Origin: an uncultured Sulfolobales archaeon
Lineage (GTDB): Archaea > Thermoproteota > Thermoprotei_A > Sulfolobales > NBVN01
DNA length: 51,051 nucleotides
Reading direction: 5' to 3'
Assembly (NCBI GenBank): GCA_938045815.1
Contig: CALIBI010000010.1
Span: forward strand, 1-51,051
Positions 10,053-47,506 of the stretch are shown piece by piece; the first letter of the stretch is position 1, and the number at the start of each line of letters is the position of its first letter. The notes beneath the pieces are model-generated. The model was not told where the DNA came from. It searched no databases and worked only from the letters and a program-made list of their open reading frames with translations. The translations under genes were made by a program, and so were the position numbers.

Positions 10053-10157
10053 GGTACTCCAAACACTATCTAACCGCTACATAGTATTTAAACTTACTAC
10101 TTAATCACTAAACACACGAGAAATACTTAAAAGCTCTCGTGAGTCAATGTAAAGGAA

Positions 10158-10254
<97 letters not shown>

Positions 10255-10272
10255 CAATCATGATCATAAATG

Positions 10273-10332
10273 CTCGGAGATGAGGAGTGGTCACCGCCTG
10301 AAGAACGTGATGAAGGCTCGTGTTACTGATCC
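10273..10332 (+). ncRNA. Candidate box C/D sRNA immediately downstream of tRNA-Lys(CTT)
   Basis: C GAGATGA (10277-10283), 14-nt guide, D' CTGA (10298-10301), 5-nt spacer, C' GTGATGA (10307-10313, 7/7), 12-nt guide aggctcgtgtta, D CTGA (10326-10329). Confidence 0.7.
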
Positions 10333-10410
10333 CCCTAAAACACCAACGTTCACGGACTCCAAAACTCAGTAGTCTTATCACTAAACATATTTATAAGCTC
10401 CACGCCAAAG

Positions 10411-37914: not shown

Positions 37915-37968
37915 AGATGATGTCTGCCTCCGGCACTGAAAGTTGATGAAAAGGCATTTGTCTGACGA
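37915..37968 (+). ncRNA. Candidate box C/D sRNA
   Basis: C ATGATGT (37917-37923, 6/7), 12-nt guide ctgcctccggca, D' CTGA (37936-37939), 3-nt spacer, C' TTGATGA (37943-37949, 6/7), 12-nt guide aaaggcatttgt, D CTGA (37962-37965). Confidence 0.75.
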
Positions 37969-47409: not shown

Positions 47410-47506
47410 GCCGCGGTAGTATAGCCCGGTCAAGTATGCGGGCCTCTCGAGCCGCGTTAAGCGTGGAAAGCCCGTGACCCGGGTTCAAATCCCGGCCGCG
47501 GCACCA
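47410..47506 (+). tRNA. tRNA-Glu(CTC), CCA encoded, with a ~19-nt intron (about 47450-47468) in the anticodon loop
   Basis: Acceptor gccgcgg/ccgcggc; anticodon arm cgggc-ctCTCg...a-gcccg after removing agccgcgttaagcgtggaa; T arm cccgggttcaaatcccgg. Confidence 0.93.

Follow-up and report, generated by a model that had tools for sequence, protein, structure and literature searches.

A box C/D sRNA downstream of an intron-bearing tRNA-Lys(CTT) gene in a Sulfolobales archaeon, with a predicted 23S rRNA target

Several archaea are already known to carry dicistrons in which a tRNA is followed by a box C/D sRNA: tRNA-Val/sRNA8 in Nanoarchaeum equitans and, with other tRNAs, those of Ignicoccus hospitalis (tRNA-Ser) and Thermoproteus tenax (tRNA-Pro) (PMC3491384, PMC7994747). 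Processing of the tRNA 3' end has been proposed to form the 5' end of the sRNA in these systems (PMC3491384, PMC7994747). The locus described here lies in a 51,051-nucleotide stretch of DNA (the window) from an uncultured Sulfolobales archaeon and resembles the described dicistrons in that the sRNA is found directly downstream of the tRNA, on the same strand and with no evident promoter. It differs from them in that the tRNA is a tRNA-Lys(CTT) with a non-canonical intron, in its spacer of about 21 nt in place of an immediate fusion, and in that the linkage is, by comparative data, local and unstable. In the dicistronic tRNA-snoRNA genes of plants, which are processed by RNase Z, a tRNA promoter likewise drives a guide RNA that is set free when the tRNA 3' end is processed (cited in PMC3491384); these genes depend on the eukaryotic transcription machinery and offer an analogy, not a group to which the window locus belongs. 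Its features argue for known kinds of element, namely a genuine C/D guide RNA that probably resides in a tRNA-sRNA dicistron. We add to the described cases a corrected anatomy, a target equivalent to yeast A649, and evidence that the linkage is local and shifting.

Anatomy of the locus

The coordinates of the locus are collected in Table 1. Read directly, positions 10273-10332 consist of GAGATGA, 14 nt, CTGA, 5 nt, GTGATGA, 12 nt and CTGA. This agrees with a first-pass annotation of the window, which had placed a box C/D sRNA 3' of tRNA-Lys(CTT): all four boxes are found where it claimed, and its D' box, 5-nt gap, C' box, 12-nt guide and D box stand as described. The boxes follow one another in the order C, D', C', D, with the C box matching its consensus at six of seven positions and the other three perfect. 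If the C box may deviate at one position at most and the other boxes not at all, this layout matches nowhere else in the window, and 60 windows simulated from a first-order Markov model contain no match, even under a relaxed rule. The block formed by the C' box, D guide and D box also has a single match in the window and none in 100 dinucleotide shuffles. Rfam reports tRNAs in the window and no sRNA.

Table 1. Features of the tRNA-Lys(CTT)-sRNA locus (positions in the window).
Feature	Position	Strand	Remarks
tRNA-Lys TATA box ACTTAAAAG	10125..10133	+	33 nt before the tRNA; score 10.2
tRNA-Lys(CTT) exon 1 (tRNA positions 1-30)	10158..10188	+	Conserved in same-family genomes
Non-canonical tRNA intron, 20 nt (30/31)	10189..10208	+	
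tRNA-Lys(CTT) exon 2, CCA encoded	10209..10254	+	
tRNA-sRNA spacer	10255..10275	+	No TATA box, no T-run
Box C/D sRNA body including terminal stem	10276..10332	+	
Terminal stem, 5' side, GGA	10276..10278	+	Pairs with 10330-10332
Candidate k-turn bulge in the corrected register	G10279-A10280-T10281	+	
C box ATGAGGA (RTGATGA with T5 -> G)	10280..10286	+	Canonical ATGATGA at the same register in ortholog G031
D' guide GTGGTCACCGC, 11 nt	10287..10297	+	
D' box CTGA	10298..10301	+	
C' box GTGATGA	10307..10313	+	
D guide AGGCTCGTGTTA, 12 nt	10314..10325	+	
D box CTGA	10326..10329	+	
Terminal stem, 3' side, TCC	10330..10332	+	Pairs with 10276-10278
TATA-like box ATTTATAAG	10389..10397	+	Score 9.4; probably the promoter of a downstream 85-aa ORF

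The C box can be read in two overlapping ways, each with one mismatch: GAGATGA at 10277 or ATGAGGA at 10280. The annotation had adopted the former (10277-10283), with a D' guide of 14 nt. We dropped this reading, as its guide exceeds the usual length and both the covariation of the terminal stem and an ortholog favour a register three bases to the right, which gives the C box listed in Table 1 and shortens the D' guide to 11 nt. In the window sRNA the stem comprises three pairs. Its innermost pair, between the base before the bulge and the base after the D box, forms in all 24 distinct same-family sequences (G-C in 19, A-U in four, C-G in one), compared with a mean of 18.9 when partners are re-dealt; none of 5000 shuffles reaches 24, a figure that is not a strict probability given that many of the 24 sequences are closely related. 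When the register is shifted by one to four bases, the pair forms in only 3 to 11 of the 24. The ortholog, in genome G031, combines a fully canonical ATGATGA at the corrected register with a six-pair stem. Archaeal C/D guides are typically about 10-12 nt long (PMC4644070), a range that accommodates both guides of the corrected reading (11 nt and 12 nt).

The identity of the neighboring tRNA, tRNA-Lys(CTT), is upheld: excision of 10189-10208 leaves a clean cloverleaf with anticodon CTT and an anticodon stem of GCGGG/CCCGT. By eye, the intron junction forms a bulge-helix-bulge, with a central CGGC/GCCG helix between the 3-nt bulges GGA and AGG. Relatives contain a homologous intron of variable length between exons that are nearly unchanged. 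ARAGORN calls a tRNA-Cys(gca) at 10158-10254, an artefact that arises because the non-canonical intron is misplaced. Other intron-bearing tRNAs of the window may also carry wrong names (ARAGORN tRNA calls at 47410 and 50667).

Predicted rRNA target of the D guide

Guide nucleotides 10315-10324 form ten contiguous pairs with AACACGGGCC in 23S rRNA, nine of them Watson-Crick and one G-U; the first position of the guide is unpaired. Position 5 (T10321) faces A733, which aligns with A575 of Escherichia coli. The yeast 25S sequence at the corresponding site is GCCCGTCTTGAAAC-A649-CGGACCAAGGAG (from oligonucleotides in PMC3938493), and A733 is therefore the counterpart of the yeast Am649 site. Accordingly equated with E. 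coli A575 and yeast 25S A649, A733 is the predicted site of 2'-O-methylation. PMC11542601 tabulates the Am649-equivalent site for human, plants, yeast and an alga; for Pyrococcus abyssi it is not listed.

A pairing score as high as that of the D guide is reached by 6.75% of composition-shuffled guides, which is modest when taken alone, so the case for the target rests on conservation. Ten contiguous pairs (nine Watson-Crick, one G-U) form in all six genomes tested. Over the guide contact, the target segment CTTGAAACACGGGCCGGGGAGT is invariant in 16 of 16 alignable archaeal 23S genes, its single late variant being GGGGAGTG/C. Nearly all variation in the guide preserves pairing: other lineages have GGCTCG, GGCCCG, GGCTTG, GGCCTG or GGTCCG before TGTT, and the bases opposite three target Gs swap between C and T. 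By a published rule (PMC4644070), a guide should make a run of nine or more Watson-Crick pairs with rRNA that includes the +5 nucleotide. The window guide makes nine such pairs that are not consecutive, being interrupted by the G-U pair; where the guide reads GGCCCGTGTT, all are Watson-Crick. A second 23S site, TAACACGGGC (L001:3093), pairs similarly in the window genome and was rejected because it changes across relatives while the guide stays constant. The rRNA contig of the congener G003 (L118, C28) is without the conserved target block; it seems foreign to the order and probably represents assembly contamination.

The complements of both guides had been put forward for target searches; taacacgagcct finds the 23S target, with position 1 unpaired, and the other finds none. 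Compared with rRNA, the D' guide GTGGTCACCGC has no match better than those of shuffled guides, and no consistent match emerged from other rRNA columns or from tRNAs; the 16S rRNA gene of the window genome is absent from the assembly. A site at 23S position 676 (L001:1298), only 53 nt from the D target, would make an attractive double guide. It was rejected, having a C at the methylated position in genomes G002 and G018 and scoring no better than shuffled guides. The D' guide could be an orphan; in PMC4644070, about one third of the sRNAs from archaea had no rRNA target.

The eukaryotic snoRNA U18/snR18 (yeast 25S Am649/Cm650, human 28S Am1326) addresses the same GAAACACGG segment and the adenosine homologous to the one predicted here. 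Unlike the tRNA-linked sRNA, snR18 resides in an intron of yeast EFB1. The likeness between the guides is likely convergence, and we regard descent of the D guide family and U18/snR18 from one ancestral A649-equivalent guide as quite improbable. Were common ancestry true, one snoRNA specificity would have endured from the common ancestor of archaea and eukaryotes onward, even as its host locus shifted between an own promoter, a tRNA-Lys leader and a protein-gene intron. The locus ties an unannotated archaeal guide RNA to an rRNA methylation common to yeast, plants and humans.

Conservation, arrangement and transcription

With up to three mismatches allowed, 46 of 60 relatives from the same order carry the block of C' box, D guide and D box (few matches in a reversed control), although a few of the three-mismatch matches (those in G007, G009 and G037, for instance) may represent other RNAs. 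A stricter pattern matches 28 of 200 genomes of the phylum (24 in the same order and four in one other family) and none in the reversed control. The proteins of a C/D sRNP are encoded as well: the fibrillarin and Nop genes are adjacent on contig C4, and L7Ae-family proteins are present. Orthologs across the order, a covarying stem, an invariant predicted rRNA target and these proteins strongly support the assignment of the locus as a box C/D sRNA.

Its position relative to the tRNA is far less constant. In the window genome (G000), the CCA end of the tRNA at 10254 lies 21 nt before the stem and 24 nt before G10279, the first base of the k-turn bulge, on the same strand. The corresponding distance to the bulge is 25 nt in G002 and 26 nt in G004, two members of the same genus, 68 nt in a further congener, G001, and 54-82 nt in six genomes of two other genera. 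In G005 and G014 the sRNA precedes the tRNA, and in G008, G013, G016 and G021 it occupies the opposite strand with its 3' end toward the tRNA; in other relatives the two are not adjacent, and several of these keep the sRNA beside a GINS gene. A spacing of 24-26 nt combined with the lack of a TATA box is confined to the window genome and the two congeners G002 and G004, which need not form a clade, since a 23S tree leaves G001 unplaced (support 0.03). The linkage is thus a local, shifting arrangement, not one conserved among relatives. Downstream of 30 other tRNAs in the window genome we saw no clear further tandem of a tRNA and an sRNA. In some relatives the sRNA lies beside the GINS replication gene even without the tRNA (L094, L099 and the tRNA-Lys loci L007-L025), and for this reason the GINS neighborhood may be its older home.

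We scanned for promoters with a TATA matrix built from the regions upstream of the window genome's own tRNA genes (the 99% level for random sequence being about 8.2). In the 48 nt that precede the sRNA C box, the scan found no TATA-like element above chance, which bears out the earlier remark that the sRNA has no obvious TATA box of its own; the best scores are at or below chance in all three tightly arranged genomes (0.08 in G000, -2.2 in G002 and -0.1 in G004). Orthologs in G003, G015, G025 and G041 also lack such an element. The first TTTT after tRNA-Lys lies 233 nt downstream, compared with a median of 86.5 for 28 other tRNAs, so no T-run separates the tRNA from the sRNA or falls within the sRNA. 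Since only the three tightly arranged genomes combine close spacing with a missing TATA box, the sRNA likely depends in them on the tRNA-Lys promoter. Sharing of the promoter is not general for this sRNA, given that relatives place it upstream, on the opposite strand or at a distance, or provide it with its own TATA-like box. The co-transcript suggested by the first-pass annotation is accordingly favoured where a short spacer, a strong tRNA TATA box and the lack of an sRNA TATA box or T-run coincide, in the window genome and the two congeners, and does not extend to relatives generally.

According to the account we prefer, RNA polymerase would start at the tRNA-Lys TATA box and read through the tRNA and the sRNA. 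Maturation of the tRNA 3' end, by RNase Z or an equivalent cut, would then free an sRNA precursor, whose ends would be trimmed back to the k-turn protected by L7Ae. The sRNA would assemble with L7Ae, Nop5 and fibrillarin into an sRNP, and pairing of the D guide with CUUGAAACACGGGCC in 23S rRNA would direct 2'-O-methylation of A733. Taken whole, the account of a C/D guide sRNP for A733 with an sRNA made from the tRNA-Lys promoter and released by tRNA 3' processing is probably correct. RNase Z-like proteins are present in the genome, with scores below the curated TIGR02651 cut-off; the RNase Z candidate is encoded at C62:17438-18268. RNase Z may act less readily on a tRNA whose CCA is encoded. 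In Sulfolobus acidocaldarius, the flanks of a C/D gene can be altered without effect on maturation, and insertion into a transcribed context has been suggested to suffice for a C/D sRNA (PMC7994747).

Alternatively, a real C/D guide could be transcribed from a weak or TATA-less promoter of its own in the tRNA 3' end or the spacer, its adjacency to the tRNA being incidental. In many orthologs a TATA-like element precedes the C box by about 30-35 nt, so independent transcription seems to be the norm for this sRNA, and the congener G001 retains such an element (score 7.0) together with its longer spacer. In the three tightly arranged genomes, however, the position expected for this element falls inside the tRNA, where the matrix gives only the chance-level scores above; archaea also have promoters with no recognisable TATA box, which such a matrix would overlook. 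The sole element within the window spacer, TCATAAATG at 10264, scores 0.9 and would place the transcription start inside the sRNA. On balance we consider a separate promoter unlikely. The missing TATA box and the C box that departs from consensus at one position would also fit a degenerate, unexpressed relic that lost its promoter on nearing the tRNA and then its function, but the three tightly arranged species have all kept the boxes, the terminal stem and the D guide while the spacer diverged, making a relic very improbable. A chance match without a gene is hardly credible: single short boxes do arise by chance, but none of the full layout is expected from the simulations and shuffles, and sequence conservation across the order already refutes it. 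The relatives form a natural series, with the sRNA behind its own TATA-like promoter, on the opposite strand, upstream of the tRNA or behind it, for testing promoter loss by capture behind a tRNA.

Two further C/D candidates occur in the same genome. One lies in the window at 37917-37965 and reads ATGATGT, CTGCCTCCGGCA, CTGA, TTGATGA, AAAGGCATTTGT, CTGA; a TATA-like AATTTAAGT precedes it. In 23S rRNA, its D guide matches CAAATGCCTT (position 2138) and its D' guide TGCCGGAGGC (position 467). The other, at L175, is weaker (ATGATGA, 13 nt, CAGA, ATGAAGA, 12 nt, CTGA) and is located about 88-30 nt upstream of tRNA-His, in front of a tRNA-His/tRNA-Arg pair.
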